From a virus: a stretch of 64,000 nt of DNA. The DNA is taken from the IMG/VR virus record IMGVR_UViG_3300034375_007061, positions 49,735 to 113,734 of that record; one strand, written 5' to 3'. Below, piece after piece: positions 6,042-58,896 of this stretch (its first letter is position 1; every line of letters begins with the position of its first letter). The notes under the pieces were generated by a model. It worked only from the letters and a program-made list of their open reading frames with translations. It had not been told where the DNA came from and searched no databases. Position numbers and translations under genes: made by a program.

Positions 6042-6725
6042 ATGAATACTAGAACAATGACCAGTGCTTACTATGACGAAGCACTGAGAACTTTTATGCT
6101 TGCACTATATAACTACACTGCAATTGGTTTGGCAATTACAGGTTTAGTTGCATATCTAACTTATGCAAGTGGATTAATGTACGCAATGGGTCCACTAATG
6201 TGGGTAGCAGTGTTTGCTCCACTTGGTATGATCCTATACTATAGTTTTGCTGGACAAAACTGGAGTTTTGAAACTACAAGAACTTTCTACTATGTGTTTA
6301 CAGCAGTAATGGGCATTAGTATGAGCACAATCTTTGCTGTATATACAGCAATCAGTATTGCTCAAGTGTTCTTTATTACAGCAGCAACATTTGCTAGTGC
6401 TAGTTTGTATGGTTATACTACCAAAAAAGACCTAAGCGGTTGGGGTAGTTTTTTACTAGTTGGATTGATTGGTATTATCATTGCAAGCATTGTTAATATC
6501 TTTTTGCAAAGCAGTGCTCTTGAATTTGCAGTAAGTGTGATTGGGGTGTTGATTTTTACAGGTCTTACAGCATACGATACACAACATGCTAAAAGTATGT
6601 TTGTAAGTGGACGTATGAACGCAAAAGAAACAGCCAAATTTGCTATTCAAATGGCACTGAGCTTGTATCTAAACTTTATCAATCTATTCCAAATGTTGCT
6701 GAGTTTACTCGGCAATAGAGAATGA
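6042..6725 (+). CDS. Bax inhibitor-1/YccA-family integral membrane protein
   Basis: 227 residues with about seven hydrophobic segments. The BI-1 features are visible: an N-terminal soluble stretch with ALRTFMLALYNYTAIGLAIT, a middle ASLYGYTTKKDLSGWGSFL, and the late signature GLTAYDTQHAK with conserved Asp and Gln. YccA in E. coli interacts with the membrane protease FtsH; BI-1 proteins also act as calcium/proton leak channels. A role in protecting phage membrane or lysis proteins from FtsH is inference. Ribosome site TAGGAG precedes the ATG. The gene overlaps queC-like by ATGA. This family is not typical of T4-type genomes, which suggests host acquisition. Confidence 0.85.
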   Translation: MNTRTMTSAYYDEALRTFMLALYNYTAIGLAITGLVAYLTYASGLMYAMGPLMWVAVFAPLGMILYYSFAGQNWSFETTRTFYYVFTAVMGISMSTIFAVYTAISIAQVFFITAATFASASLYGYTTKKDLSGWGSFLLVGLIGIIIASIVNIFLQSSALEFAVSVIGVLIFTGLTAYDTQHAKSMFVSGRMNAKETAKFAIQMALSLYLNFINLFQMLLSLLGNRE

Positions 6726-7336
6726 TTCTTTGTGACGTAGAATTTGAACTACCAAAAGGCCCTGTCGGTGTGTTGTGCAGCGGCGGGGCTGATAGTTCAT
6801 TAATCCTTTATTTGTTAATGAAACATAGTAATCAACCATTACATGTCCTTACAATGGCAAATAGAAAAAAACATTTTACTAATGCTATAGTTGTAAGTAA
6901 AGTAATAGATTGGTGTATGAAAAAAACAAACAATAATAATATTGTACATACCGTAAAATACGTCGATGAGCAAACAGACGAGCAATTACAACAACTAACA
7001 ATTCAACATCTAAAAGTATTCCGTACAATTTACATTGGTGATACTTGTTATCCACCAGAAGATATACATGATGAATTTGTACAAAATACAGGCGATAGTT
7101 TTAATAAACTAGAAGATAGAAAACCAAATAAAAATCGTGCAACAAAAGCAGGGCCAATATATGTTCCATTTACAAATTATAACAAAAGAAAAATAGCCGA
7201 AATATACGAACATCTTGATATTATGGAACTTGCAGATATTACTCGCAGTTGCGAAACATTTGAAGATATTGGTACAAAACATTGTGGTAACTGCTGGTGG
7301 TGCAAAGAAAGAGAATGGGCTTTTGATAAACGGTAA
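6722..7336 (+). CDS. queC: QueC-like 7-cyano-7-deazaguanine (preQ0) synthase
   Basis: 204 residues, slightly short of cellular QueC (about 220-230). The N-terminal PP-loop VLCSGGADSS (residues 17-26) binds ATP. The C-terminus has the zinc-knuckle pattern of QueC: Cys177, Cys188, Cys191 and Cys194 (C-x10-C-x2-C-x2-C). QueC converts 7-carboxy-7-deazaguanine to preQ0 using ATP and ammonia. FolE, QueE, a QueD-like protein and a DpdA-like transglycosylase are elsewhere in the window, which supports a real preQ0 pathway. Another PP-loop amidase remains possible. It overlaps BI-1 upstream and a radical SAM gene downstream. Confidence 0.75.
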   Translation: MILCDVEFELPKGPVGVLCSGGADSSLILYLLMKHSNQPLHVLTMANRKKHFTNAIVVSKVIDWCMKKTNNNNIVHTVKYVDEQTDEQLQQLTIQHLKVFRTIYIGDTCYPPEDIHDEFVQNTGDSFNKLEDRKPNKNRATKAGPIYVPFTNYNKRKIAEIYEHLDIMELADITRSCETFEDIGTKHCGNCWWCKEREWAFDKR

Positions 7337-8180
7337 AATTATTAATGACAAAATTCTAGTGCATACAGCTCAATGGTATATTACTCATACATGTAATATA
7401 TCATGTAATCATTGTTTGAGTTACAATAACTATAATATTAAAGGACATGACAATTTTAAAGAAAATTTAATTTATGCTAAAGAATGGGCTAAAAAAATTA
7501 TAATCAAAGACTTTACAATTGTAGGAGGCGAAGTTTTTACACACAATAACCTTAATCAATGGGTTTTTGGCTTACGAGAAATTTTTCCTGACATAGAAAA
7601 TTTTAAAGTTCTTACCAACGGTACCGTACTATCAAAGTATGCAGATAGCTTTGATAAATGGTTTGAAAAAAATATAATTATTGAAATTAGTTTTAAAAGA
7701 GAAGAAGATTATAATGATCTTTACGAAATTTTAAAAAGATATAAAAATGTTGAACGTAAAATTCACTTTATGTATGATGAGGCAATCTATATAAACGGTA
7801 AACTTTGTTTCTTAGTTGAATATTGTGACTCGCATATGCAATGGGGAATAAAAGAATACAAAGAAGGATTTTATGAATTTTATAATAGTAATAGCGAAGA
7901 AGCTCATAAATCATGCTGGCAAAAAGATTGTCACTATTTTTACAAAGGCAATTTATACAAATGCGGAACTATTGTTGGTGCTCAAGAATTTGTAAAAAAC
8001 TTTCCTGTAAAAGAGCATATTAAAAGTAGAATAAATGGATATGCACCTTTGAAATATGATCATCCTGAGTTACTTGAACAAATTAAATCTTTAAATAATC
8101 ATATTCCACAATGCTCATTGTGTCCATCTATTGCTTTAGATGATAAATTAGTTGTTGACAATAAGAAAATATTGCCGTAA
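7323..8180 (+). CDS. Radical SAM enzyme with C-terminal cysteine cluster, next to queC-like gene
   Basis: The radical SAM motif C-x3-C-x2-C is clear (THTCNISCNHC, Cys24/28/31 if translation starts at 7323), followed by a glycine-rich SAM-binding segment (FTIVGGEVF). The C-terminal part has more cysteines (KSCWQKDC, then KCGT, then CSLCPS), which looks like a SPASM or twitch auxiliary iron-sulfur site. No ATG precedes the motif in frame within the non-overlapping region. TTG at 7323, overlapping the end of the queC-like gene, is my best start, with AAAGAGAA upstream; the open frame extends back to 7215. The substrate is unknown. Coupling to queC hints at deazaguanine modification, as inference. 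Confidence 0.7.
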   Translation: MINGKIINDKILVHTAQWYITHTCNISCNHCLSYNNYNIKGHDNFKENLIYAKEWAKKIIIKDFTIVGGEVFTHNNLNQWVFGLREIFPDIENFKVLTNGTVLSKYADSFDKWFEKNIIIEISFKREEDYNDLYEILKRYKNVERKIHFMYDEAIYINGKLCFLVEYCDSHMQWGIKEYKEGFYEFYNSNSEEAHKSCWQKDCHYFYKGNLYKCGTIVGAQEFVKNFPVKEHIKSRINGYAPLKYDHPELLEQIKSLNNHIPQCSLCPSIALDDKLVVDNKKILP

Positions 8181-35663: not shown

Positions 35664-35802
35664 CGTGATTGACAGCGCAGAACCTAAACTCACTCAATAT
35701 GAAACTTTTGAAACTGCTATGAGTTGTCATATTGAACAGGCTGTACTCGAAGCAGACTTTACACAAGAAGAAATAGCGTTCTGCGAGGACCCGAATGAAT
35801 AA
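35638..35802 (+). CDS. Small phage protein, possible N-terminal membrane anchor
   Basis: 54 residues from ATG 35638 to TAA 35802. It begins MWTLWIISSVIDSAEPKLTQ, a short hydrophobic start that may anchor or signal, then an acidic helical part with two cysteines (MSCHIEQAVLEADF and FCEDPNE). It overlaps both the cytidylyltransferase and the phosphomannomutase-like gene. Function unknown. Confidence 0.5.
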   Translation: MWTLWIISSVIDSAEPKLTQYETFETAMSCHIEQAVLEADFTQEEIAFCEDPNE

Positions 35803-36508
35803 ATTTATTTTTGATGTGGACGGAACACTAACTCCGAGTAGACAAACTATTGATCCAGAGTTTAAAGAGTTTTTCAAACACTTTATCCAAGATAACAAGG
35901 TTTGGCTTGTAACTGGTAGTGATTATGCTAAAACCGTAGAACAACTTGGAGAGGATATTTGTGAAAGTGTTGTAACCGTGTATAATTGTTCAGGAAACGA
36001 TACATGGTTCAAAGGCAAACGTGTAAACAGCAAACCATTTGAAGCACCTAAAGAACTATATGATCTAATGAATGGCTGGTTGCAAGGTAGTCCATTTTCA
36101 CTACGTACGGGTAATCATATTGAAGAACGCACAGGAACAATCAACTTTTCAATTGTAGGACGTAATTGTACGTTAGGAGAACGTAAATTATATATTAAGC
36201 ATGATCTTGAAAATAGAGAACGTGAAAGTATTGCTTTTCAAATTAATAGTGAGTTTCCTAATATTACAGCAGCAGTTGGTGGCGAAACAGGTATTGACAT
36301 ATATCGCAAAGGTGGCGACAAAAGTCAAATACTAGAAGACTTTAATAAAAATGATAAGATTTATTTCTTTGGCGATCGTATGGAGCCAGGTGGCAATGAT
36401 TGGCCATTAGCAGCAAAACTAAACAAACAAAGATGTTACAATGTAAAAGATTGGCGTGATACTATGGAACGGTTACAATACTTTCAAGAGGCGAAAATAG
36501 CAGCATGA
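35795..36508 (+). CDS. Phosphomannomutase-like HAD enzyme (eukaryotic PMM type)
   Basis: 237 residues, close to eukaryotic-type PMM (about 245). The HAD nucleophile motif is FIFDVDGTLTPSRQ with Asp7 and Asp9; motif 2 is WLVTGSDYAK; and motif 4 is YFFGDRMEPGGNDWPLA, which matches the G-D-x-x-x-P-G-G-N-D of alpha-PMM. It would convert mannose-6-phosphate to mannose-1-phosphate, or act on related sugar phosphates. The neighbours are a cytidylyltransferase and a nucleotide-sugar dehydrogenase. Overlaps both neighbours. Confidence 0.8.
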   Translation: MNKFIFDVDGTLTPSRQTIDPEFKEFFKHFIQDNKVWLVTGSDYAKTVEQLGEDICESVVTVYNCSGNDTWFKGKRVNSKPFEAPKELYDLMNGWLQGSPFSLRTGNHIEERTGTINFSIVGRNCTLGERKLYIKHDLENRERESIAFQINSEFPNITAAVGGETGIDIYRKGGDKSQILEDFNKNDKIYFFGDRMEPGGNDWPLAAKLNKQRCYNVKDWRDTMERLQYFQEAKIAA

Positions 36509-37251
36509 TTATAGCAGGTCACGGATTTGTAGGTAAAGCATATGAATGGTTGTTTGCTAACTATAGAAGAAAAATAGAAATACATGATCCTGCAAAAGGG
36601 TTTACAGCTGACTTTGATAATACAAGTGCAGTAATTATTTGTGTACCAACACCGCAAGCAGATGACGGCTCTTGTGATATGAGTGCAGTTTATGATGTAG
36701 TAGGCAAGTGTAGACCAGATACACCAATAATGATCAAAAGTACAATTAGTTTGCAAGGATGGTATGAACTTAAAGACCGCTTTCCAAATCATAAATTTTG
36801 TTTTAGCCCAGAGTTTTTAAGAGCAGCAAATCACATGATTGATATTAAAAATATGGATACCTTTATTATTAGTGGTGATACAGAATACTGGCGTGATCAA
36901 ATTAGTTACAACTGGCCACATATGCGTATACGCACCGTAAAACCTGAAGAAGCTATAGCAATAAAATATTTTAGAAATGCTTTTTTAGCAACTAAAGTTA
37001 GTTTTTTCAATGAAATATATGACTTTTGTTCAGCATACGATATCAGCTTTGATCAAGTTCAAGGCGGTATTATAGCAGATAAAAGAATAGGAGAAAGTCA
37101 TAGTTACGTATGGCCAGATGAAGGGGTAAGAGGTTGGGGAGGATATTGTTTTCCAAAAGACACCAGTGCTCTATTAAAAATGGCAGCAGAAAAAAATATT
37201 AATCTAAATACACTAGAAGCAGCAGTTGAATACAATAAAAAAATACGTTGA
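36505..37251 (+). CDS. UDP-glucose/GDP-mannose dehydrogenase-like protein, short form
   Basis: 248 residues, against about 430 in the family: the N-terminal NAD domain (MIIAGHGFVGKAYEWL) and the central catalytic domain are present, but the C-terminal nucleotide-sugar-binding domain is absent. Visible markers are VPTPQADDGSCD, EFLRAANHMIDI and the catalytic Cys in GWGGYCFPKDTSALL. Whether it still oxidises a sugar nucleotide without the third domain is open; similar short forms may occur in other phages. The 3' end carries the promoter for gp45. Confidence 0.8.
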   Translation: MIIAGHGFVGKAYEWLFANYRRKIEIHDPAKGFTADFDNTSAVIICVPTPQADDGSCDMSAVYDVVGKCRPDTPIMIKSTISLQGWYELKDRFPNHKFCFSPEFLRAANHMIDIKNMDTFIISGDTEYWRDQISYNWPHMRIRTVKPEEAIAIKYFRNAFLATKVSFFNEIYDFCSAYDISFDQVQGGIIADKRIGESHSYVWPDEGVRGWGGYCFPKDTSALLKMAAEKNINLNTLEAAVEYNKKIR

Positions 37252-37276
37252 CAATCAACAACTTAGGCAGTATAAT
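37248..37276 (+). promoter_or_regulatory. Perfect sigma-70 promoter TTGACA-17-TATAAT for the sliding clamp
   Basis: TTGACA at 37248-37253, 17 bases, TATAAT at 37271-37276, then the ribosome site TAGGAGA and the gp45 start at 37297. Both boxes are full consensus and the element is mostly intergenic. Confidence 0.85.
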
Positions 37277-37296: not shown

Positions 37297-38028
37297 ATGA
37301 AAGACATTCTACAAGACATTGTAAGCCATACACATTCGTTAGGCATTATTTCAACACTTAAAATTACAACAGAAAATGATATCACAACTATTGAAAGTAT
37401 GGCAGACGATAGAAGTGTTATTATGACAGCAACAACACATTCACCAGTAGGCGAATTTGTAGGTACATTTGGTATGCCTGATTTAGGTAAACTAGCTTAT
37501 CATTTAAAAAATCCAATGTACAGAGAAAATGCTAAAATTGAAGTAATAAGTGCAGAACGCAACGGTGAAGTTGTTCCAACACATATTCACTTTGAAAACG
37601 ATACAGGTGACTTTAAAAACGATTATCGTTTTATGATTAAAGAAATTATCGAAGAAAAAATTAAAAAGTTTAGTTTTAAAGTTAATACATATGATGTAGA
37701 AATCCAGCCAAGAATTGGTAAAATTGAACAAATGAAATACATGCAAGGCGGACACACAGAAGAAACGGTGTTCCAAGTTAAAACTGAAAATGATAACTTG
37801 GTATTTTATTTTGGTGATGATGTAACACACGCAGGTAACTTTGTATTTGAGCAAGGTATTACTGGAAAACTAACACATACATGGGCATGGCCTGTTTCAC
37901 AAACTATTGCTATTTTGAACTTGGATGGTGATAAAACTATGAGCATCACAGACCAAGGTGCTATGAAGATTAGTGTAGACAGCGGCATGGCAAAATACGA
38001 TTACATTCTACCGGCTCAACAAAAATAA
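37297..38028 (+). CDS. 45: DNA polymerase sliding clamp (T4 gp45 type)
   Basis: 243 residues, T4 gp45 being 228. The segment EFVGTFGMPDLGKLAYHLKN in the N-terminal domain is the best match to gp45 and its marine homologues. Remaining sequence shows alternating beta strands typical of the clamp fold (HIHFENDTGDFKNDYRFMI). It tethers gp43 to DNA and, in T4, is also the mobile enhancer of late transcription, which fits the late promoters here. It overlaps the DpdA-like gene by one base (TAATG). Confidence 0.88.
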   Translation: MKDILQDIVSHTHSLGIISTLKITTENDITTIESMADDRSVIMTATTHSPVGEFVGTFGMPDLGKLAYHLKNPMYRENAKIEVISAERNGEVVPTHIHFENDTGDFKNDYRFMIKEIIEEKIKKFSFKVNTYDVEIQPRIGKIEQMKYMQGGHTEETVFQVKTENDNLVFYFGDDVTHAGNFVFEQGITGKLTHTWAWPVSQTIAILNLDGDKTMSITDQGAMKISVDSGMAKYDYILPAQQK

Positions 38029-39584
38029 TGAAAACAAACCTAACTGAAACACAAAAAGATTATGCAGTATTTTTACCTAGTATTAGCGGCTTTTATGGCA
38101 CGTTTGTAGGTAAACAAAGATATGAAGATTATGTTGATCCTTCTCGTGTTCCAGCAGGTTTAGGCAATGTAGAAAGTCTTAATTTTTTAAATCCTAAAGA
38201 CGGAGCATTCCATTACAAGTGGGCGCTCTATTCTGCTGGTCACGCAGATTTAGATACGACTAAATTTGTTGATAAAGAAGATATGGTGCGTAACCGTGAT
38301 AGAGATAATTCATGGTTGCTAGGCGACTCAGGTGGTTTCCAAATTGCTAAAGGGTTGTGGCCCGGTGACTGGACTAGCGAAACTTGTCCACATGCAAATA
38401 AAAAACGTGAGCTTGTTGTAAACTGGATGGAAGAATACATGGACTACGGAATGATGCTTGATATTCCTACATGGACCTTCCAAAGTGCAAAAGCAAGTAA
38501 AGCAACTAACATAAAAAGTTATGATGATGCTGTAAAAGCTACTCATATTAATGCACGTTATTACATGAAACATAGACGTGGTAACTTTAAGGTATTAAAC
38601 GTACTACAAGGCAGTAATCATACTAATGCCGATAGTTGGTATGAAGAATTCAAAGGTTATTGTGATCCAAAACAATATCCAGATACACACTTTAATGGCT
38701 GGGCAATGGGTGGTCAAAACATGTGTGATGTTCATTTGATTTTACGCAGACTTGTACACATGATACACGATGGATTACTTGAACAAGGGCTGCATGATGT
38801 AATGCACTTCTTGGGCACAAGTAAACTAGAATGGGCTGTGTTACTTACTGACATACAACGAGCTGTTCGCAAATATCATAATCCTAACTTTATGATTACA
38901 TATGATTGTGCATCTCCTTTTCTTGCAACAGCAAACGGTCAAATTTATCATAACATTAGATTAGATCACAAAGGCAAATGGAGTTATATTATGAGTCCAG
39001 GTGCTGACGCTTTGAAATATGCTAGTGATACTAGAAGTTTTATAGACGCAGTACTACAAGATGGCTTATTACCTACATTTGAAGAATCTCCTGTTAGTCA
39101 ACACTGCAAAATGAATGATATTTGCATTTATGCTCCAGGCGATAAAAACAAAGTTGGTACTATTAAAGTTGAAAAAGGTAAGCCAGAACTTGATAAACAA
39201 GGTAATCCTTTACTAGACGATAACGGAAATCCAATTATTATGCGTAAAGATAGCACAAGTTGGGATTCATTTAGTTATGCGCTACAAATGGGTCATAATG
39301 TTTGGATGCATATTGAAAGTACACAACGTGCAAACGAGCGTTATGATGCAGGAGAATATCCTTACATGATGGTATACGAACCAAGTATTAGACATGTGTT
39401 TAGAGATATTGTCAATGAAATCTTTGCACAAAAAGATCGTGAAAAAAGTCTTGCAGTTATTAACAAATATGGTGACGATAAATCGCTAAGTATTTGGACA
39501 CACATTATTGGTACTAGATTGAAAGTTGGTAAGAAAACAATAACACCGGAAGCAAAAGCAGACGAATTATTTGATTGGGGTTGA
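38028..39584 (+). CDS. dpdA: DpdA-like DNA deazaguanine transglycosylase (TGT family)
   Basis: 518 residues, longer than bacterial TGT (about 375). TGT-family landmarks are in order: LLGDSGGFQIA (Asp100), LDIPTW (Asp145), NVLQGSN (Gln194-Gly195), GWAMGGQ (224-229) and TYDCASPF with the presumed nucleophile Asp293. The zinc site of bacterial TGT is not seen in the usual form. Phage members of this family (DpdA) exchange guanine in DNA for preQ0 or derivatives, protecting against restriction. FolE, QueD-like, QueE and QueC-like genes elsewhere would supply preQ0. A tRNA substrate is a less likely alternative. It follows gp45 by a TAATG junction. Confidence 0.8.
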   Translation: MKTNLTETQKDYAVFLPSISGFYGTFVGKQRYEDYVDPSRVPAGLGNVESLNFLNPKDGAFHYKWALYSAGHADLDTTKFVDKEDMVRNRDRDNSWLLGDSGGFQIAKGLWPGDWTSETCPHANKKRELVVNWMEEYMDYGMMLDIPTWTFQSAKASKATNIKSYDDAVKATHINARYYMKHRRGNFKVLNVLQGSNHTNADSWYEEFKGYCDPKQYPDTHFNGWAMGGQNMCDVHLILRRLVHMIHDGLLEQGLHDVMHFLGTSKLEWAVLLTDIQRAVRKYHNPNFMITYDCASPFLATANGQIYHNIRLDHKGKWSYIMSPGADALKYASDTRSFIDAVLQDGLLPTFEESPVSQHCKMNDICIYAPGDKNKVGTIKVEKGKPELDKQGNPLLDDNGNPIIMRKDSTSWDSFSYALQMGHNVWMHIESTQRANERYDAGEYPYMMVYEPSIRHVFRDIVNEIFAQKDREKSLAVINKYGDDKSLSIWTHIIGTRLKVGKKTITPEAKADELFDWG

Positions 39585-39807: not shown

Positions 39808-39964
39808 AAAGAAAGTTAGATTAGAACATATTGATATGGCTTTAGAAGAACTTGATAAAATCATTGACACAATGAATAAAAAAGGCTATAGTAATGAAAA
39901 AATAAACGAGTTTAACAAACAACGTTGGAATCTTTGGAATGAAAGGTATAGGCTTAAACAATGA
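39794..39964 (+). CDS. Small charged helical protein, unknown
   Basis: 56 residues from ATG 39794 to TGA 39964 (MDEHEKKVRLEHIDMALEEL). Highly charged and probably helical throughout, ending NEFNKQRWNLWNERYRLKQ. The start overlaps the DUF465-like gene and the stop overlaps the next start (ATGA). Function unknown. Confidence 0.5.
   Translation: MDEHEKKVRLEHIDMALEELDKIIDTMNKKGYSNEKINEFNKQRWNLWNERYRLKQ
39864..39892 (+). promoter_or_regulatory. Sigma-70-like promoter TTGACA-17-TATAGT inside a gene
   Basis: TTGACA at 39864-39869 and TATAGT at 39887-39892, 17-base spacing, within the 56-residue gene and about 70 bases before the gene at 39961. Confidence 0.5.
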
Positions 39965-40467
39965 AACGAGATTATGATAGTGGTGTAACATCAGAAGGTG
40001 TAAACTTTTTTGTTGGTACTGAAGTAGAACACACACCGCAGTTTGGTAAGAAAACACTTTTTGTTGTAGGTGTACAAAACTTTGAAGAAATTGTAGAACA
40101 CGCAGATAAAGCGGGTGTAGATCATATTTACTTGGGTGCTAATATGAGTTGGAGCAAGGACGAGTCTTGGGACGAAATGGTATTTCCATTGTTGAAAGAC
40201 GGTTACTGGGTAACACTAGATTTTCCTGTGCAAGACATTGAATGGGTGCTAGAGTGCGGCTATACAGAATACAATCGCTTTATTCCAATGATTAGCGTAA
40301 AAATGCCTTACATTGATCTACTAGGTTACAATGCTTGTTTAAAAGTAGATGACAAGGATTTTGATGCTACTAATCCAGGTGTATGGGTACATCGTGTACA
40401 TGATTTAAAAGATAAATCAAAGTTTACAGATTGGTCTAAATACACCACAGATGAAATTATCGCTTGA
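39961..40467 (+). CDS. Conserved T4-like marine phage protein, unknown
   Basis: 168 residues. The opening SGVTSEGVNFFVGTEVEHTP and TLFVVGVQNFEEIVEHADKA are familiar from a conserved family of T4-like marine phages. The alternating strand/helix pattern (HIYLGANMSW, WVTLDFPVQDIEWVLECGYT) suggests a TIM-barrel-like or Rossmann-like fold, but no catalytic residues can be named. It sits directly before the QueD-like gene, which may hint at a pathway link. Confidence 0.6.
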   Translation: MKRDYDSGVTSEGVNFFVGTEVEHTPQFGKKTLFVVGVQNFEEIVEHADKAGVDHIYLGANMSWSKDESWDEMVFPLLKDGYWVTLDFPVQDIEWVLECGYTEYNRFIPMISVKMPYIDLLGYNACLKVDDKDFDATNPGVWVHRVHDLKDKSKFTDWSKYTTDEIIA

Positions 40468-40921
40468 CAATATGCAACAAGAACGTTATTATGAATATAT
40501 GAAACGGCGCAACAGAGAAGAGGACGCTAAATTGAACGCATTAGAAAATGCAAAACGCAGTATTTGGGTAACTTTTACAAAAGAAGGTATCCACAAGTAT
40601 CCAGCAGCACTGGAAGATCCAGCACTGGCAACAGGTGATGAATATGATGTAAGTTTCTTAGGTTATCCACATCGTCATATGTTCCATTTTAAAGTGCAAA
40701 TTCAAGTTACACACAATGACCGTGACATTGAATTTATCCAGTTCAAACGATGGCTGGAATCATTGTATGCAGGAGACATCTTGCAACTAGATTACAAGAG
40801 CTGTGAAATGATTGCAGACGACTTGTACACACAAATTAACAGCAAATATCCCGGCCGGTTTGTTGTTATTGATGTTGCCGAAGATGGCGAAAACGGCTGT
40901 CAAATTGTATACCCAGCATAA
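40451..40921 (+). CDS. QueD/PTPS-like protein with altered active site
   Basis: 156 residues from ATG 40451 (ATG 40472 is an alternative). By eye it aligns with QueD: FTKEGIHKYP for F-x-x-x-A-H-R-L-P, YPHRHMFHFKVQI for the H-G-H zinc motif, IEFIQFKRWLESL for the V-D-F-x-x-L-K strand-helix, SCEMIADDLYTQI for the T-x-E-x-x-A helix, and VIDVAEDGENGCQIVY for the terminal E-x-x-x-x-x-x-x-Y. The three zinc histidines are kept. The catalytic Cys before H-x-H and the D-H pair His are not seen. QueD makes 6-carboxytetrahydropterin from FolE's product. Activity is therefore uncertain. Confidence 0.55.
   Translation: MKLSLDNMQQERYYEYMKRRNREEDAKLNALENAKRSIWVTFTKEGIHKYPAALEDPALATGDEYDVSFLGYPHRHMFHFKVQIQVTHNDRDIEFIQFKRWLESLYAGDILQLDYKSCEMIADDLYTQINSKYPGRFVVIDVAEDGENGCQIVYPA
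40464..40492 (+). promoter_or_regulatory. Sigma-70-like promoter TTGACA-17-TATTAT at start of QueD-like gene
   Basis: TTGACA at 40464-40469 and TATTAT at 40487-40492, 17-base spacing. It overlaps the first codons of the QueD-like ORF. A transcript from here would begin near 40500, so if used the protein would start at a later ATG (40500) or the promoter serves the genes downstream. Confidence 0.4.
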
Positions 40922-40935
40922 AGGAAAAAGGTATA

Positions 40936-41124
40936 ATGACTATCTCTAATCCGGTAGTAAATAAAATTTTTAACGATCTTGAGGAACTGCACGACTTCTG
41001 CAGAACTGAAGGTTATCCATTTAACCAAGCAGATTTGTATAAGAAAGATGCTCGTGTATGGCAGGCATTTCAAAAATACAAAAATTGGGTCCGTGCTAGA
41101 AATCGCACCAAAGGACGCAAATAA
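40936..41124 (+). CDS. Small conserved phage protein, unknown
   Basis: 62 residues, basic C-terminus (WVRARNRTKGRK). The middle NDLEELHDFCRTEGYPFNQA and VWQAFQKYKNW is a pattern conserved in T4-like marine phages. AAGGAAAAAGG precedes the ATG. Start/stop overlap with the glycosyltransferase-like gene (TAATG). Function unknown. Confidence 0.6.
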   Translation: MTISNPVVNKIFNDLEELHDFCRTEGYPFNQADLYKKDARVWQAFQKYKNWVRARNRTKGRK

Positions 41125-42299
41125 TGCGTAAGCTGTTTTACATGGGCTTAGAGCCCTATGAAGGCAGGTACACATTACAACTTGAAGAATGGAGTAGGCG
41201 TGCGTTTCAACGCCGCTCCATTGATTGGGTTAATGTACCTGGTACAACTATTGACAATACAAAAGCAATTCAAGTAGGCCAAGTGTTAGATGCACATGGC
41301 CGTTCCTACTTTGCAATGTCGCAAATGATGAACTTGGTGCAAATGATGCGTAACGGTGAAGTTACAGGCGAAGATGTAGTTTTCTTTGAAGATATGTTCC
41401 AGCCTGGTATGGAATCGCTTCCGTATATTATGGATCAGATTCCCACTGAGCAACGTCCACAGGTTTGGATTCGTTGTTTAGCACAAGCAGTTGATCCAGA
41501 TGACTTTGTGCATGTTTGGGGCATGGGCAAGTGGATGAGTTTGTATGAAGAAATGTGCAACGAGTTTGTTACTGGCGTACTAGCAAGTAATGAAGAAATG
41601 GTTGCACACATGAAGATTGCAAACTGGAAGGCTCCTATCTACAATGTTTCAGGTCTTGCATTTGATAAAACAGAAGTTGCTCTACGTGTTGGCGAGATCA
41701 ACACTTGGGAAAAGCGTGACAATCGTGTGGTATTTGCAGCACGTTTTGATCAAGAAAAACAACCAGACTTTTATATGGATTTGATTGAAGAATGGTATGG
41801 TACACCAGGTACAGCAGACGTGGAGTTTTGCATTGTGCAAGGTGGCCCGCTACGCAGTAACAATCAAAAGTATATTGATCGTGCCCGCAAAATGGAAGAG
41901 CGTGGACAACTGGTAATTTATGAAAACTTGAAAAAGAATCATTACTATGATATTGTAAATCGTAGTAAAGTTTTGTTCAATTGTGCTTTGCAGGATTGGA
42001 CAAGCAATACGGTAAGCGAAGCAGATGCATTAGGATGCAATGTGTTGTTTCCAGCGTATCGCAGTTTTCCAGAAATCTTTGCTAATGATCATACACGCAT
42101 GTATGTGCCTTGGAGTGTTGAAGATGCAATGAACAAGTTAACGCCATTACTAAAAAGCGCACATAAAGACTTAGGTAAGATAAGCGATTGGACTAGTGCA
42201 ACTATTGATCGTTATATTGATATTATGCAAGGTAACGGTGAACAATGGCGTAGAGATAGCAATCGTTATCGTGATTATGTTGCGGAGACAAAATATTGA
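41124..42299 (+). CDS. GT-B-type glycosyltransferase-like protein
   Basis: 391 residues. The second half has the layout of a GT4-like C-terminal domain: VVFAARFDQEKQPDFYMDLI (the strand-loop-helix after the linker), then FNCALQDWTSNTVSEADALG followed by CNVLFPAYRSFPE, where the Glu in SEADALG is in the E-x7-E-like donor-binding position. The substrate is unknown. It could glycosylate DNA bases, as T4 glucosyltransferases do, or surface sugars. An epimerase gene follows by a TTGA overlap. Confidence 0.65.
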   Translation: MRKLFYMGLEPYEGRYTLQLEEWSRRAFQRRSIDWVNVPGTTIDNTKAIQVGQVLDAHGRSYFAMSQMMNLVQMMRNGEVTGEDVVFFEDMFQPGMESLPYIMDQIPTEQRPQVWIRCLAQAVDPDDFVHVWGMGKWMSLYEEMCNEFVTGVLASNEEMVAHMKIANWKAPIYNVSGLAFDKTEVALRVGEINTWEKRDNRVVFAARFDQEKQPDFYMDLIEEWYGTPGTADVEFCIVQGGPLRSNNQKYIDRARKMEERGQLVIYENLKKNHYYDIVNRSKVLFNCALQDWTSNTVSEADALGCNVLFPAYRSFPEIFANDHTRMYVPWSVEDAMNKLTPLLKSAHKDLGKISDWTSATIDRYIDIMQGNGEQWRRDSNRYRDYVAETKY

Positions 42300-43162
42300 G
42301 AGTATTGGTCACAGGTGCTACAGGTTATATTGGCAGTCATGTTTGTAAACTACTAAAAGAGCATGGACATCACGTTACTGCTTGGGATATAAATATTCAT
42401 GGTGAATACAATGACATCATGGCATATTGTGACCATTATTCTTCTTATGATATAACTAAGTTTGTACATGGTGGCTTTGACGCCGTTGTACACTTAGCAG
42501 GACGCAGTGTAGTACCTGATAGTTTACGTGAACCTACAGAATATTATCGTGTAAACGTGATGGGTACTGCAAACTTGTTAGATCGTGTCGAAACACCACA
42601 CATACTATTTGCAAGCACTAGTAGTGCTTGGGAAATGGCATCACCATATGCACGTAGCAAAGTGGCAGCAGAAGATGTAATTAAGGAGAAAGCCAATGGA
42701 TACACTATCTTTAGATTTTTTAACGTATCTGGTACTGACGGGCATAATCGTCAACTGGGCGTTCCTACCCATCTTATTCGTGTTGCTGCTATGGTGGCTG
42801 CTGAAAAACTACCCAACATTAAGATCTTTGGTACGGACTATGATACTAGGGATGGTACTTGTATTCGTGATTATATTCATGTTGTTGATTTGGCTCGTGC
42901 CATTGTCAACGGAGTGGAACGAGGTCCAGCCAATACGGACTATGAGTGCCTTGGTAGCAACGTAGGTTATAGTGTACGAGAAGTAATCAGTACTATGGAG
43001 CAAGTTACTGGTAAAAAGTTAAATATCATTGAAGCAGAACGCAGAGAAGGCGATGCTGTTGCCAGTGTTGTAGACAACCTAAGTGATCTAGTTACACTGG
43101 AAAAAAGCATCGAAGATATGTGTTTGGATCAATACAAATTGGAAGTTGGTAAAAATGGATGA
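42296..43162 (+). CDS. NAD-dependent sugar epimerase (GalE-like SDR)
   Basis: 288 residues with a TTG start at 42296 that overlaps the upstream stop (TTGA), GGAG nearby. Extended SDR features: VTGATGYIGSHVCKLL (NAD-binding G-x-x-G-x-x-G), the active-site Ser region ASTSSAWEM, Y-x-x-x-K in SPYARSKVAAE, and the GalE signature GTCIRDYIHVVDLA. About 50 residues shorter than typical GalE. It likely interconverts UDP-glucose/galactose or a related pair for the adjacent glycosyltransferase. A run in about 42700-42960 has unusual codon use compared with its flanks. Confidence 0.85.
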   Translation: MRVLVTGATGYIGSHVCKLLKEHGHHVTAWDINIHGEYNDIMAYCDHYSSYDITKFVHGGFDAVVHLAGRSVVPDSLREPTEYYRVNVMGTANLLDRVETPHILFASTSSAWEMASPYARSKVAAEDVIKEKANGYTIFRFFNVSGTDGHNRQLGVPTHLIRVAAMVAAEKLPNIKIFGTDYDTRDGTCIRDYIHVVDLARAIVNGVERGPANTDYECLGSNVGYSVREVISTMEQVTGKKLNIIEAERREGDAVASVVDNLSDLVTLEKSIEDMCLDQYKLEVGKNG

Positions 43163-48910: not shown

Positions 48911-49121
48911 TATAGAACAATGGATTGAACGTATAAATGCAATGAAAGATATGTGTATTCAAGCACATAGATTGCGTAATCAATACAGCGAACAAGTTGA
49001 AGAAACATACAACTATGCACAAGTAAAAGATATACTAGAGCAAGTGCAATCAATGGCCGCCGGTATTGCAAATGAAAAAATAACCGAAATTAAAACAGAA
49101 ATGGATGAATGGAAAAAATGA
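48900..49121 (+). CDS. Small helical phage protein with TTG start, unknown
   Basis: 73 residues from TTG 48900, overlapping the amidinotransferase stop. Entirely helical with coiled-coil character (IEQWIERINAMKDMCIQAHR and VKDILEQVQSMAAGIANEK). It ends in an ATGA overlap with the phosphoribosyltransferase gene. No family recognised. Confidence 0.5.
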   Translation: MQHSIEQWIERINAMKDMCIQAHRLRNQYSEQVEETYNYAQVKDILEQVQSMAAGIANEKITEIKTEMDEWKK

Positions 49122-49672
49122 AACGCAAACATTATACTTGGGACGATGTACATAAATGTGCTCACAAACTAGCACTGGAAATGTACAAAACTGGATTCAA
49201 ACCAGATTATATTGTAGGACTCAACAGAGGCGGTCTGCCTATCAGTGTTGTGTTAAGCCATTTATTAGACTGCGACCATTATGCGCTAGATGTACGGTTA
49301 CGTGATAACAAAGGAGAAACTGGACCTGAATCTAACTGCTGGATGGCAGAAGATGCGTTTGGGTATGTATCTCAAATTGATAGAGATGATGTTTGGAGTA
49401 AATCTACTAGCGATACTGCTAAGAAAAAGAAAATTTTAATTGTAGATGATATCAACGATACTGGTGCTACATTTAAATGGATTAAAGAAGATTGGCAAGC
49501 AGGTTGTTTACCAGATAGTCCAAACTGGGATACCATTTGGAATCAAAATGTTCGCTTTGCTGTAATGTGTGAAAAAACACATACCGAGTTTGATGGGGTT
49601 GACTATGTATGGCAAACCATAGATACAGGTGAAGAAGATACATGGATTGTGTTTCCATGGGAATATGATTAA
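49118..49672 (+). CDS. Phosphoribosyltransferase (purine/xanthine type)
   Basis: 184 residues from ATG 49118, which overlaps the upstream stop (ATGA); ATG 49109 is possible. The PRPP-binding motif is KILIVDDINDTGATFKWI, and an early loop PDYIVGLNRGGLPISVVLSH matches type I PRTases. It salvages a base with PRPP, but the base (hypoxanthine, xanthine or other) cannot be told from sequence. In this context it might also handle a deazaguanine-like base or serve NAD-type salvage; both speculative. Confidence 0.8.
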   Translation: MKRKHYTWDDVHKCAHKLALEMYKTGFKPDYIVGLNRGGLPISVVLSHLLDCDHYALDVRLRDNKGETGPESNCWMAEDAFGYVSQIDRDDVWSKSTSDTAKKKKILIVDDINDTGATFKWIKEDWQAGCLPDSPNWDTIWNQNVRFAVMCEKTHTEFDGVDYVWQTIDTGEEDTWIVFPWEYD

Positions 49673-50094: not shown

Positions 50095-50826
50095 ATGACA
50101 GAAGAAGTAAAAGGACTTAATACTGACAATGTTGAGCCTGTAAAGATTAGTCAAGTAGTACGTGAAAGACTACAAAAAAACGGTGTTCGTTTTTATGCAA
50201 ATGACAATATTAGTGAACATATTAGTGAATTTGAATTACAAGAGATTCAAAACGAATTAAAATACAAGTTCCAAGATGTACTAGATACACTTATTATTGA
50301 TACAGAAAACGATCCAAACAGCATGGATACTGCAAATCGTTTGGCGAAGATGTATATTCATGAATTGATGCGTGGAAGGTATTATCCGCAGCCTAATGCA
50401 ACTGCATTTCCTAATCATACAGATGATGCGTATGATGGTATGCTTGTTGTGCGTAGCGAACTTAAAAGTGTTTGTTCGCATCACCATCAACCAGTTACAG
50501 GTGTAGCATATATTGGTATTCTTGCTGCTGATAAACTTATTGGATTAAGCAAGTATACACGTATTGCACAATGGTGTGCTAGACGTGGCACACTACAAGA
50601 AGAACTTGCAATGGATATCTGTAAAGAAATAATGAAAGTTACAGGTGCTAAAGATTGTGGTGTTTATATTCAAGCAACACACGGTTGCTGTGAAAATAGA
50701 GGCATTATGGCACATAGTAGTTTAACACAAACAAGTGTACTAAAAGGTGCGTTTAAAACTGATCCTGGTACAAAGAAAGAATTTTTTGATAACATTAAAT
50801 TACAACAGGAGTTTGCACCGCGATGA
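50095..50826 (+). CDS. folE: GTP cyclohydrolase I (FolE)
   Basis: 243 residues. Active-site features: ANRLAKMYIHELMRGRYY (N-terminal), zinc motif VCSHHHQPVTGVAYIGILA with Cys and His ligands, LSKYTRIAQWCARRGTLQEE, and HGCCENRGI with the third zinc Cys. It converts GTP to dihydroneopterin triphosphate, the first step of both folate and deazaguanine synthesis. The 4-base ATGA overlap with queE favours a role in preQ0. It has its own promoter. Confidence 0.93.
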   Translation: MTEEVKGLNTDNVEPVKISQVVRERLQKNGVRFYANDNISEHISEFELQEIQNELKYKFQDVLDTLIIDTENDPNSMDTANRLAKMYIHELMRGRYYPQPNATAFPNHTDDAYDGMLVVRSELKSVCSHHHQPVTGVAYIGILAADKLIGLSKYTRIAQWCARRGTLQEELAMDICKEIMKVTGAKDCGVYIQATHGCCENRGIMAHSSLTQTSVLKGAFKTDPGTKKEFFDNIKLQQEFAPR

Positions 50827-51719
50827 AACTAAGATATAGTGAAGCATTTTATAGTGTGCAAGGCGAAGGCAAATTTGTAGGAGTACCTAGTGTATTCCTA
50901 CGCACCTTTGGTTGTAACTTTCGTTGTATGAATTTTGGTGTGGATAAAAGTGTTGGCAGTCGTTGGGAGCAACACGCAAAAGGTCAACGCTACAACGCAG
51001 AAGTAAAACAACTGCTAGATGACGGTGTTCATGAAACTACAAAAGAGTTTAATGATTTGCCTATTGTGCATACAGGCTGCGATACATATGCAAGTATCTA
51101 TCCAGAATTTAAACACTTCAATATGCTTAAAAGCGTAGATGAAGTTGTAGAACACTTGTTGAGTTTGTTGCCGGAAGGCAAATGGACTATGGATAATGGA
51201 CAAGATGTTCATCTTATCCTTACAGGCGGCGAGCCATTACTTGCTTGGCAACGGTTGTATGTCGAGCTGTTTGAACACCCAGGTATGCAGGATCTAAAAA
51301 ATGTCACAATCGAAACCAACACTACACAGCATCTACACGATGACTTCTACAACTATCTCAATGGTCACGAAAGAATTCAGCTCACTTTTAGCTGTTCTCC
51401 CAAACTATCCGTATCGGGCGAGTCTTGGGATGATGCTATTAAGCCTGATGTTGCTCGTGAGTATTCCCTTGTTGATGGCAGCAATATGTATTTTAAGTTT
51501 GTTGTTGCTGATCAGAGTGATGTTGACGAAGTTGGTAGAGCAGTTGATACCTATCGTAAAGCGGGCGTGGATGTTCCTGTATATCTCATGCCGCTTGGGG
51601 GTAGGTCGGAAGAATACACTCTCAACGTACAAGAGGTGGCGAACCTCTGTATGGAACGAGGGTGGAGGTTCTCGCCAAGACTCCACATTAGCCTATTCGG
51701 AAATGCCTGGGGCACTTAA
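50823..51719 (+). CDS. queE: QueE-like 7-carboxy-7-deazaguanine synthase with extended loop
   Basis: 298 residues, longer than typical QueE (about 210-240). The N-terminus EAFYSVQGEGKFVGVPSVFL is the QueE opening. The radical SAM cysteines are Cys31 and Cys35 in GCNFRCMNF, and the third is probably Cys86 in TGCDTYAS, equivalent to the F-C-D-T of QueE. A charged segment of 50 residues lies between them. LTGGEPLLAWQRLY is the SAM-binding GGEP. QueE turns 6-carboxytetrahydropterin into CDG. Coupled to folE by ATGA. Confidence 0.88.
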   Translation: MKLRYSEAFYSVQGEGKFVGVPSVFLRTFGCNFRCMNFGVDKSVGSRWEQHAKGQRYNAEVKQLLDDGVHETTKEFNDLPIVHTGCDTYASIYPEFKHFNMLKSVDEVVEHLLSLLPEGKWTMDNGQDVHLILTGGEPLLAWQRLYVELFEHPGMQDLKNVTIETNTTQHLHDDFYNYLNGHERIQLTFSCSPKLSVSGESWDDAIKPDVAREYSLVDGSNMYFKFVVADQSDVDEVGRAVDTYRKAGVDVPVYLMPLGGRSEEYTLNVQEVANLCMERGWRFSPRLHISLFGNAWGT

Positions 51720-56450: not shown

Positions 56451-57533
56451 ATGGAAGTAACACGTACTCTAAGTCCAAACAAAGCGAAAATTGCAATTAA
56501 ACATGCAATGAGTAAAAAACGTCCAATCTTTTTATGGGGTCCTCCTGGTATTGGTAAGTCTGATATTATTGCTCAAATTACAGATAGTTTGCCTAACTCA
56601 CATTTGATCGATATTCGACTATCTCTTTGGGAGCCAACTGATATTAAAGGCATTCCATATTTTGATGCTAACCTGGGTAAAATGGTTTGGGGGTCTCCTA
56701 GTGAACTGCCAGACGAAGAATTTGCTGCACAATACGACAATATTGTTGTTTTCTTTGACGAAATGAACTCAGCTGCTCCTGCTGTACAAGCGGCAGCATA
56801 TCAGTTAATTTTGAATCGTCGTGTAGGACAATATAAACTGCCAGACAATGTTATCATTGTTGCTGCGGGTAACCGCGAATCAGACAAAGGCGTTACATAT
56901 CGTATGCCTGCTCCGTTAGCAAACCGTTTTGTACACATTGAAATGGAAGTTAGCTTCGATGATTGGTTCCAATGGGCTGTTGATAACAATCAGCATAAAG
57001 ACGTTGTTGGCTACATTACTTTTGCTAAAAAAGACTTGTATGATTTTGATCCTCGTTCTCCAAGCCGTTCATTTGCAACTCCACGTAGTTGGGCATTTGT
57101 AAGTGAATTGCTAGATGATGAATTAGACGAATCAACTACAACAGATCTTGTTTCAGGTTCAGTTGGCGAAGGTACAGGTGTCAAGTTTATGGCTCACCGT
57201 AAAATTGCATCTAGCATGCCTAACCCAACAGATATTCTATCTGGTAAAGTAAAAGAGTTGAAAACTAAAGAAATCAGTGCTATGTATTCCTTAACCGTTT
57301 CACTCTGCTACGAACTTAAAGAATCATCAGATAGAAATGATTCCAAATTTGACAAAAAAGTAAATAATTTCCTTCGTTTTGCGATGGATAATTTTGACAC
57401 TGAACTTGTTGTAATGGGAATCAAACTTGCACTAACACAATATGCATTACCTATTGATCCAGACGAAGTAGAATGCTTCGACGAATTCCATGATAGATAT
57501 GGAAAGTATATCAAGGCTGCACAGGCTGCATAA
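56451..57533 (+). CDS. MoxR-like AAA+ ATPase
   Basis: 360 residues. Walker A FLWGPPGIGKSDIIA, Walker B VVFFDEMNSAAPAVQAAAYQ, sensor 1 IIVAAGNRESDKG and the arginine segment MPAPLANRFVHIEME form a MoxR/CbbQ-type module. MoxR ATPases work with VWA-domain partners as chaperones or metal-insertion factors. The next gene encodes a HExxH plus VWA protein, a matching partner. A strong terminator separates them, so each has its own promoter. Confidence 0.85.
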   Translation: MEVTRTLSPNKAKIAIKHAMSKKRPIFLWGPPGIGKSDIIAQITDSLPNSHLIDIRLSLWEPTDIKGIPYFDANLGKMVWGSPSELPDEEFAAQYDNIVVFFDEMNSAAPAVQAAAYQLILNRRVGQYKLPDNVIIVAAGNRESDKGVTYRMPAPLANRFVHIEMEVSFDDWFQWAVDNNQHKDVVGYITFAKKDLYDFDPRSPSRSFATPRSWAFVSELLDDELDESTTTDLVSGSVGEGTGVKFMAHRKIASSMPNPTDILSGKVKELKTKEISAMYSLTVSLCYELKESSDRNDSKFDKKVNNFLRFAMDNFDTELVVMGIKLALTQYALPIDPDEVECFDEFHDRYGKYIKAAQAA

Positions 57534-57543
57534 GGTGCATAAT

Positions 57544-57571
57544 GGGCAGTTTCGACTGCCCATTTTTTTTT
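57544..57571 (+). terminator. Intrinsic terminator after the MoxR-like gene
   Basis: GGGCAGT (57544-57550), loop TTCG (57551-57554), ACTGCCC (57555-57561), then A and nine T. A UUCG-type tetraloop on a seven-base stem with a long U tract is a textbook rho-independent terminator, and the only clear one found in the window. Confidence 0.92.
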
Positions 57572-57578
57572 GAAAAGG

Positions 57579-57606
57579 TTGACATATTGTTTAAATATGT
57601 TATATT
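57579..57606 (+). promoter_or_regulatory. Sigma-70-like promoter TTGACA-16-TATATT
   Basis: TTGACA at 57579-57584 and TATATT at 57601-57606 with 16-base spacing, directly after the terminator and before the VWA gene at 57634. Confidence 0.7.
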
Positions 57607-57633
57607 AATACTGAAACAACAAATGAGGATAAC

Positions 57634-58896
57634 ATGTCTGTAAAACAAACGTCTAGTAAGCCAAAGAAAAATTGGCAACCTAATCCAGATATTACAGAAA
57701 ATGAACTTGCTACAATGCGTGAAGAAGTACTTGATCGTATTATCATTGCACGAGTAGGTTTGTTACTTCGTCATCCGTTTTTTGGTAATATGGCAACTCG
57801 TTTGCGTATTATTGCAGCAGATGAATGGTGTCCTACTGCCGCAGTAGACGGACGCAATCTTTATTTTAACACTCAGTTCTTTAATGCAATGGACAATAAA
57901 GAAATTGAGTTTGTTATTGCACATGAAATTCTGCATTGTGTTTACGGACACTTAGACCGTCGTGAAGACAGAGATCCGCATTTGTATAATATTTCAGCTG
58001 ATTATAAAGTCAACAATCTGCTAGTACGTGATCGCATTGGAACAAAACCCAAACTTGTTGATTGTTTTCAAGACTTTCAATATGATGCAGATACATCAGA
58101 AGAAATTTATGATAAATTGTACGAGAAATATGACGAACAACAGCTAGAAGCACTAGGCGAATTGTTGGATGAACATATTGATTGGGAAGATAAAGGAGAG
58201 GACGACGGAAAAGGTCCTTCTAAATATAGTAAAGACGAACTTCGTAAAATTAGAGACGAAATAAAAGATAGTATGCTTCAAGCAGCTCAATCTGCAGGTG
58301 CTGGCAATGTTCCAGGCGAAATTCAGCGCATGATTAAAGAGCTAACAGAACCTAAAATGAATTGGCGTGAGCTTATACGTTCACAAATTCAAAGCACTAT
58401 CCGTAACGATTTTACATTCCAACGTCCTAACCGCAAAAGCTGGCATACTGGTGCTATTCTGCCAGGTATGAACTTTCAAGAAACTATTGATATTTGTATT
58501 AGTTTAGATATGAGTGGTTCAATTGGCGATCCACAAGCACAAGACTTTTTAGGAGAAGTCAAAGGTATTATGGACGAGTTCAAAGACTACAAAATTAAAA
58601 TCTGGTGTTTTGATACTAAAGTTTACAATGAACAAGACTTTAGTGCAGATGGTGGTGATGAACTAACAGATTATGAAATTTTAGGCGGCGGTGGTACCGA
58701 CTTTATGGTTAATTGGGAATATATGAAAGAAAATGACATCCAGCCTAAAAAGTTCATTATGTTTACAGACGGCTATGCTTGGGATAGTTGGGGTGACCCA
58801 GATTATTGCGATACTATTTTTATTATTCATAGTAACCACAATAAAAATTTAGAAGGACCTTTTGGTATCACTGCACATTATGAGGAAGCTGCGTGA
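57634..58896 (+). CDS. HExxH metallopeptidase-like and VWA domain protein (DUF2201 type), MoxR partner
   Basis: 420 residues. Residues about 85-125 contain IEFVIAHEILHCVYGHLDRR, a HExxH plus distal His zinc-like site, in the arrangement of the DUF2201 N-terminal domain. Residues about 285-415 form a VWA-like domain with MIDAS residues in ISLDMSGSIGD, a Thr in GGGGTDFM, and an Asp in IMFTDGYAW. MoxR and VWA protein pairs are known as ATP-driven chaperone systems. Function in phage infection is unknown; acting on host complexes is possible. Confidence 0.8.
   Translation: MSVKQTSSKPKKNWQPNPDITENELATMREEVLDRIIIARVGLLLRHPFFGNMATRLRIIAADEWCPTAAVDGRNLYFNTQFFNAMDNKEIEFVIAHEILHCVYGHLDRREDRDPHLYNISADYKVNNLLVRDRIGTKPKLVDCFQDFQYDADTSEEIYDKLYEKYDEQQLEALGELLDEHIDWEDKGEDDGKGPSKYSKDELRKIRDEIKDSMLQAAQSAGAGNVPGEIQRMIKELTEPKMNWRELIRSQIQSTIRNDFTFQRPNRKSWHTGAILPGMNFQETIDICISLDMSGSIGDPQAQDFLGEVKGIMDEFKDYKIKIWCFDTKVYNEQDFSADGGDELTDYEILGGGGTDFMVNWEYMKENDIQPKKFIMFTDGYAWDSWGDPDYCDTIFIIHSNHNKNLEGPFGITAHYEEAA

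Follow-up and report, generated by a model that had tools for sequence, protein, structure and literature searches.

A predicted 7-deazaguanine DNA-modification module in a phage, with a DpdA-type transglycosylase and an associated glycosyltransferase

Introduction

DpdA pathways are among the ways in which phages keep restriction enzymes from reading their DNA. The locus analyzed here raises the question of whether its phage, a marine one, encodes such a pathway and, if so, which modified base it would place in DNA. The window, as we call the whole stretch of 64,000 bases that was analyzed, corresponds to bases 49735-113734 of an IMG/VR virus record; because this record is a linear fragment (113,734 bases), absences within it are weak evidence. 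An initial annotation had proposed that the window holds a complete preQ0-to-DNA pathway, with FolE, a QueD-like protein, QueE, a QueC-like protein and a DpdA-like transglycosylase spread over 45 kb. In our analysis the predicted chemistry of the gene set is best read as a post-replicative 7-deazaguanine DNA-modification module, probably with glycosylation, to which we assign a probability of roughly 0.7. DpdA-based 7-deazaguanine DNA modification is a known type of system, the new elements probably being the DpdA clade and the product.

Results and Discussion

A DpdA-type transglycosylase at 38028

The reading frame at 38028 is open and encodes 518 amino acids. Searches with the single sequence gave no match in Pfam (the TGT model PF01702 included), PHROGs, NCBIfam, PADLOC or PDB, and the identification therefore rests on structure, profiles and motifs. 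An AlphaFold model of moderate confidence (mean pLDDT 68) was built from 22 IMG/VR homologs. All 50 matches listed for it in the PDB were TGTs (probability 1.00, best E-value 1.7e-4, 11-13% identity), and among the predicted viral structures of BFVD it matched entry R9TGF0 of Vibrio phage nt-1, whose 464 amino acids equal the length of the nt-1 DpdA2 ORF, together with other TGT/DpdA entries. Phage nt-1 is one in which dPreQ0 has been measured (PMC6884629, PMC12028318). The TGT-type motifs of the 38028 protein are DSGGFQ (100-105), LD-x-P (D145), LQG (194-195), the G-rich loop GGQ (228-230), H-x-LG (H260) and ITYD (D293), and the alignment shows D100, D145, H260 and D293 to be common to the 9g, nt-1 and ACP17 proteins. 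The CxCxxC zinc motif is present in the archaeosine TGT 1iq8, GR11A and PhiXhv-15 and absent from the 38028 clade. His196 has been stated to separate DpdA1 from DpdA2 (PMC6884629). Position 196 of 9g DpdA was computed to be His and the column is conserved as His in the 38028 protein, but nt-1 DpdA2 also carries His there in our alignment, contrary to that statement, and the residue failed as a discriminator.

Relatives were found in the isolated Pseudomonas aeruginosa jumbo phages PA5oct, MIJ3, Paride and Callisto and their kin (35% identity), in Sinorhizobium phage Phosso (27%) and, over part of the protein, in Vibrio phage 2.275.O (33%), all of them annotated as hypothetical. At least 270 IMG/VR contigs carry a DpdA of this clade, yet Pfam, PHROGs and NCBIfam miss it. 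A FastTree tree of 14 proteins, with large distances and weak support for its deep branches, united the 38028, PA5oct-like, Phosso and 2.275.O proteins in one group apart from the DpdA2-type proteins (nt-1, ACP17, BUCT-ZZ01, X1), from GR11A/PhiXhv-15 and from 9g DpdA. Judged by these 14 sequences, the group appears to be a new DpdA-type clade. Cui et al. reportedly added DpdA3 and DpdA4 as further subfamilies in 2023. Our profile A4 had no match in Campylobacter phage CP220; its match to 9g holds by construction and that to nt-1 partly so, as A4 contains DpdA2-like proteins, and neither was taken as proof.

The genes encoded with the 38028 protein (FolE and QueE downstream, a PTPS elsewhere in the record) also favor DpdA membership. 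The earlier description of a DpdA-like TGT-family protein was thus borne out by predicted fold, motifs and grouping with phage DpdA-type proteins; placement with tRNA TGTs only, which would have spoken against it, is not what the tree and the zinc motif indicate. We class the 38028 protein as a DpdA-type enzyme, one that presumably acts on DNA. That the phage encodes a pathway for 7-deazaguanine DNA modification, served by a DpdA-type enzyme, is well supported by the predicted fold, the active-site residues, the synteny of the gene with FolE and QueE, and the relatives in known DpdA phages.

A conserved module around the transglycosylase gene

The features of the locus are collected in Table 1. 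Its locus counts refer to 80 IMG/VR loci found via DpdA, each denominator being the number of loci with a long enough flank.

Table 1. Features of the module and its flanks (window coordinates)
Feature	Position	Strand	Evidence
Phosphomannomutase-like HAD protein, accessory not core	35795..36508	+	PF03332 2.2e-27; 63/80 loci
UDP-glucose dehydrogenase-like protein, accessory not core	36505..37251	+	PF00984 2.3e-23; 60/80 loci
Perfect sigma-70-type promoter match (12/12)	37248..37276	+	just upstream of clamp-like ORF and dpdA
Sliding-clamp-like protein (phrog_12062)	37297..38028	+	80/80 loci; Phosso homolog annotation
Predicted DpdA-type (TGT-superfamily) guanine transglycosylase, apparently new clade	38028..39584	+	fold match, motifs
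Conserved module protein orf39961	39961..40467	+	69/69 loci
phrog_17812, QueD-fold protein without the QueD catalytic Cys	40451..40921	+	fold, missing Cys, QueC pattern; 54/54 loci
GT4-like glycosyltransferase	41124..42299	+	PF00534 8.9e-5; PDB GT group 1 3e-7; 46/46 loci
GalE-like nucleotide-sugar epimerase	42296..43162	+	PF01370 4.8e-37; TIGR01179 7.3e-60, below equivalog cut-off; 38/38 loci
Xanthine/guanine-type phosphoribosyltransferase	49109..49672	+	PF00156 2.2e-12; PRK09177 1.3e-10, below cut-off
FolE, GTP cyclohydrolase I	50095..50826	+	PF01227 1.1e-38; phrog_2197 4.5e-43
QueE, 7-carboxy-7-deazaguanine synthase	50823..51719	+	phrog_2076 6.5e-52

The clamp-like ORF, DpdA, orf39961, the phrog_17812 protein, the GT4-like glycosyltransferase (GT) and the GalE-like epimerase were syntenic in all related contigs long enough, and within about 10 kb FolE was found at 19 and QueE at 18 of 27 loci. 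Once the putative QueC at 6722 (discussed below) is set aside, the genes are not scattered over 45 kb as first thought, the core lying at 37.3-51.7 kb and being syntenic in relatives. The order is clamp-DpdA-GT-phrog_17812-QueE in PA5oct, and Phosso has a partial set in the order clamp-phrog_17812-GT-FolE-QueE. In contigs L039 and L042 the clamp-like gene is duplicated, the copies being separated by about 3.4 kb, and GT directly follows dpdA as in PA5oct. The clamp-DpdA-phrog_17812-GT module is also present on contigs L111-L115, which are binned as Phycisphaerae, Neomarinimicrobiota, Rickettsiales, Euryarchaeota and Rhodobacteraceae MAGs and are probably phage DNA inside bacterial or archaeal bins.

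The clamp-like ORF and dpdA have one base in common, the last of the former's stop codon and the first of the latter's start codon (TAATG). Since a profile of this ORF found no sequence match in the PDB, the label "clamp" rests on the Phosso homolog, which is annotated as DNA polymerase III sliding clamp beta; such a protein might couple the modification to replication. Homologs of orf39961 occur only in PA5oct-like phages and in ACP17, where the gene sits between FolE and DpdA. Promoter-like sites in the region are not above chance (76 against 72.5 expected), two of them being perfect 12/12 matches. No PIG-L deacetylase was found in the window phage or in the relatives with the full module. 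Outside the module, an AAA ATPase adjoins a DUF2201 metallopeptidase/VWA-like protein at 56451-58896, as a MoxR-VWA-like pair.

FolE, QueE and a QueD-fold protein

The assignments of FolE and QueE were confirmed. FolE reaches 132.9 bits against PF01227 (cut-off 27) and stays under the NCBIfam equivalog cut-off; QueE, aligned with the enzymes of 9g and others, retains the Fe-S cysteines C31, C35 and C87 as well as TGGEP and SPK. The phosphoribosyltransferase gene adjoins FolE, a similar gene lies beside QueE in BUCT-ZZ01 (L092:7462-7923), and a possible role of the enzyme is to recycle the guanine that DpdA would free.

The 40451 protein falls into phrog_17812 (E-value 6.5e-35 in the PHROGs search). 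The best PDB match of its model (pLDDT 81) was Escherichia coli QueD (Foldseek 4.9e-5, probability 1.00), which we consider to outweigh, as an indication of a predicted QueD fold, the only 45% probability that hhalign gave for phrog_17812 against QueD. The histidines at metal-ligand positions (H48 and H74-x-H76) are invariant in phrog_17812, but two features that are invariant in six phage PTPS/QueD proteins, the catalytic Cys preceding the HG(H/Y) motif and an Asp-His pair, are not conserved. A separate PTPS with Cys, Asp-His and Glu present is encoded in the same record outside the window (G000:C1:34801-35196; 65.8 bits, over the Pfam cut-off), and a PTPS besides phrog_17812 was also found in PA5oct, Phosso, BUCT-ZZ01, phiST, RHph_I1_18, ACP17, X1, Bakedbeans, MA9V-3 and, barely above the cut-off, Ahp1. 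Because the catalytic Cys is missing and both the record and most relatives encode a PTPS of their own besides it, the 40451 protein is most likely an extra protein and its identification as QueD was rejected; of the label "QueD-like", the fold and the His ligands stand, and the catalytic residues and the QueD identity do not. PA5oct (L107, 167500-174500) encodes, in addition to phrog_17812, a canonical QueD next to FolE and, as a second PTPS, a protein in which HGY replaces HGH. In Vibrio phage Bakedbeans (L099:8221-9372) and Chryseobacterium phage MA9V-3 (L101:8491-9372), the phrog_17812 domain makes up the C-terminal portion of a larger protein and is preceded by a further N-terminal part.

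Among 11 isolate phages carrying phrog_17812, none showed a full-length QueC over the cut-off (the match in D479 is partial, at 32.8 bits, and that in X1 is sub-cut-off), and none of the six DpdA/QueE phages examined that have QueC (nt-1, 2.275.O, CP220, GR11A, PhiXhv-15 and 9g) carries phrog_17812. This exclusion is a strong pattern and not an unbiased statistic, because the selection of QueC-positive phages drew in part on known ones. As phages with phrog_17812 mostly lack QueC, the QueE product is probably the point where the route branches off, without preQ0 being made. This suggests that phrog_17812 takes over downstream of QueE, the QueE product probably being the substrate of the candidate activity of the 40451 protein.

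A GT4-like glycosyltransferase confined to DpdA phages

The initial annotation had overlooked the conserved GT. The window GT scores 22.5 bits against PF00534, below the cut-off of 26.4, while its X1 and BUCT-ZZ01 homologs are above it, and a profile of the family matches solved GT group 1 enzymes in the PDB. The family has the N-terminal signature (L/I)E-x2-E-x-RYT; the window protein reads D-x7-E where the ACP17 homolog has E-x7-E. The GT gene adjoins phrog_17812 in PA5oct, Phosso, BUCT-ZZ01 and ACP17, and in X1 only dpdA lies between them.

With the ACP17 GT as query, 20 of 50,697 phage records matched, all with a DpdA homolog; 16 of these also have phrog_17812, and the other four (PhiXhv-12/15/16 and Ep032) have a weak match to the 38028 DpdA clade. 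PhiXhv-15, the one examined out of those four, encodes a DpdA-like protein. In this Xanthomonas phage, GT, a PIG-L (GlcNAc) deacetylase and Gat-QueC are consecutive and in this order (L109:7659-10893), a gene row that hints at a sugar-bearing archaeosine-type base. A GT-seeded search of IMG/VR gave at least 591 relatives, of which 80 were kept. At the loci of 12 kb or more, a 38028-clade DpdA was present in 47/47, phrog_17812 in 46/47 and FolE in 37/47; close kinship is common among these contigs, so that the 47 loci should not be counted as separate events, the number of independent lineages being about seven. The confinement of the GT to DpdA phages and its place in the module tie it to 7-deazaguanine DNA modification. 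The simplest reading of these sequence patterns, offered as a reading and not as a result, is that the GT may glycosylate the modified base, and its presence may change the expected product.

Proposed pathway and alternatives

We propose that a 7-deazaguanine derivative would replace some of the guanines in the phage DNA after its synthesis. FolE and a PTPS/QueD-type enzyme, either the phage's own or that of the host, would convert GTP to CPH4, from which QueE would form 7-carboxy-7-deazaguanine (CDG). At this point the phage route probably departs from the textbook one, with the 40451 protein converting or delivering CDG in place of the QueC step to preQ0. The 38028 enzyme would then cleave the glycosidic bond that holds a guanine in the DNA and insert the 7-deazaguanine base, with Asp293 as nucleophile and Asp100 as acid/base by analogy with TGT, and the freed guanine could be salvaged by the 49109 phosphoribosyltransferase. 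The GT would then probably glycosylate the base or its precursor, using a sugar nucleotide made partly via the GalE-like epimerase, and the bulky modified guanines would be expected to block restriction and other DNA-targeting defences. The most specific form of this model, in which a widespread class of phages has glycosylated 7-deazaguanine in its DNA through a CDG branch with phrog_17812 and no QueC, insertion by the new DpdA clade or DpdA2, and a sugar from a dedicated GT4-like enzyme, is put forward tentatively, its chances being slightly under even. If the GT does decorate the base, the product would be a hypermodified guanine analogous to the glucosylated hydroxymethylcytosine of T4. 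To our knowledge, a glycosylated hypermodified guanine of this kind has no earlier report. A literature search, with preprints and most subscription papers outside its coverage, found no report of DNA modification in PA5oct-like phages.

Alternatively, phrog_17812 would strip the carboxylate of CDG and DpdA would insert plain 7-deazaguanine or CDG, the GT acting elsewhere (for instance on proteins of the virion, glycans at the cell surface or a different base). Such a route agrees with the lack of a full QueC in phrog_17812 phages, six of which (phiST, RHph_I1_18, D479, Bakedbeans, Ahp1 and MA9V-3) have no GT of the 41124 family, so that the GT is not required in every pathway of this type. 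Cui et al. reportedly predicted in 2023 a CDG decarboxylase, DpdL, in a dDG pathway that is not known to include a glycosyltransferase. A possible identity of phrog_17812 with DpdL is a lead only, which weakens this route. It also leaves aside that the GT family is limited to DpdA phages and lies inside the module in six lineages, and that in PhiXhv-15 a related GT is beside Gat-QueC and the PIG-L deacetylase. Plain 7-deazaguanine has no ordinary O/N sugar handle at C7; with a glycosylated product, phrog_17812 would therefore be no decarboxylase, or the sugar would be elsewhere, or the chemistry would be unusual. We regard the unglycosylated route as rather doubtful, if a serious contender.

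The complete preQ0 pathway of the initial annotation, with 40451 as QueD, 6722 as QueC and DpdA inserting preQ0, is unlikely. In its favor are the QueD fold of the 40451 protein and the features of the 6722-7336 protein, which has the PP-loop SGGADS, a C-terminal CGNCWWC as in QueC and a PF06508 match (2e-9). However, the 6722 protein reaches 22.9 bits against the QueC equivalog model (cut-off 150.3), went unmatched when 50,697 phage records were searched by tblastn, and has homologs in only two related contigs (L103 and L104), among radical-SAM genes. It is not conserved with the module, nor seen alongside it in most relatives, and the module comes without QueC in PA5oct, Phosso, BUCT-ZZ01 and ACP17; the residues missing from 40451 and the separate PTPS also count against this pathway. 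We rejected 6722 as the QueC of the pathway for its weak score and lack of conservation: what holds of "QueC-like" is the PP-loop and the C-terminal cysteines, and the protein neither matches QueC over its full length nor is conserved along with the pathway. In the window this protein adjoins a radical-SAM protein (6722-8180), with which it may form a separate, unrelated modification pathway, and directly upstream lies a Bax1-I (BI-1 family) membrane protein (6042-6725; PF01027, E-value 5.4e-57). The proposal of deazaguanine-modified DNA made by the phage's own pathway is thereby retained in part, with the DpdA-type enzyme, FolE and QueE and without the complete preQ0 pathway.

It is very improbable that the 38028 protein is a queuosine-type tRNA TGT with no DNA modification involved: it shares the fold of tRNA TGTs, and some phages with preQ0 genes and no DpdA may feed host tRNA modification (PMC6884629), but its clade lacks CxCxxC, no TGT Pfam model matches it, its gene overlaps the clamp-like gene here and in PA5oct has DNA polymerase genes as neighbors, and no tRNA genes were found in the window.

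Comparison with known systems

Like the 38028 protein, nt-1 DpdA2 (YP_008125322) has the TGT fold, DSGG, the catalytic Asp and H-x-LG, with FolE and PTPS/QueD near; however, the two share about 16% identity and belong to separate clades, and nt-1 has QueC nearby and neither phrog_17812 nor the GT. The DpdA of Enterobacteria phage 9g shares the catalytic Asp, the His196 column and a gene position beside a sliding clamp, but is about 317 amino acids long, with DSGA instead of DSGG, and 9g has an archaeosine route with Gat-QueC and lacks the GT and phrog_17812. The DpdL/dDG pathway would account for QueE without QueC and for an extra small protein.

The PA5oct-like jumbo phages (Arenbergviridae) share with the window the 38028 DpdA clade, the clamp-like ORF, GT, phrog_17812, orf39961 and QueE; they differ in having orf39961 and FolE elsewhere in the genome and a canonical QueD with a second PTPS, nearly all of it annotated as hypothetical. 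In Acidovorax phage ACP17, Synechococcus phage BUCT-ZZ01 and Xanthomonas phage X1, FolE, QueE, phrog_17812 and the 41124 GT family surround DpdA as in the window, and QueD is present as well. Their DpdA, however, groups with DpdA2, and the pair of GT and phrog_17812 thus goes with two kinds of DpdA.
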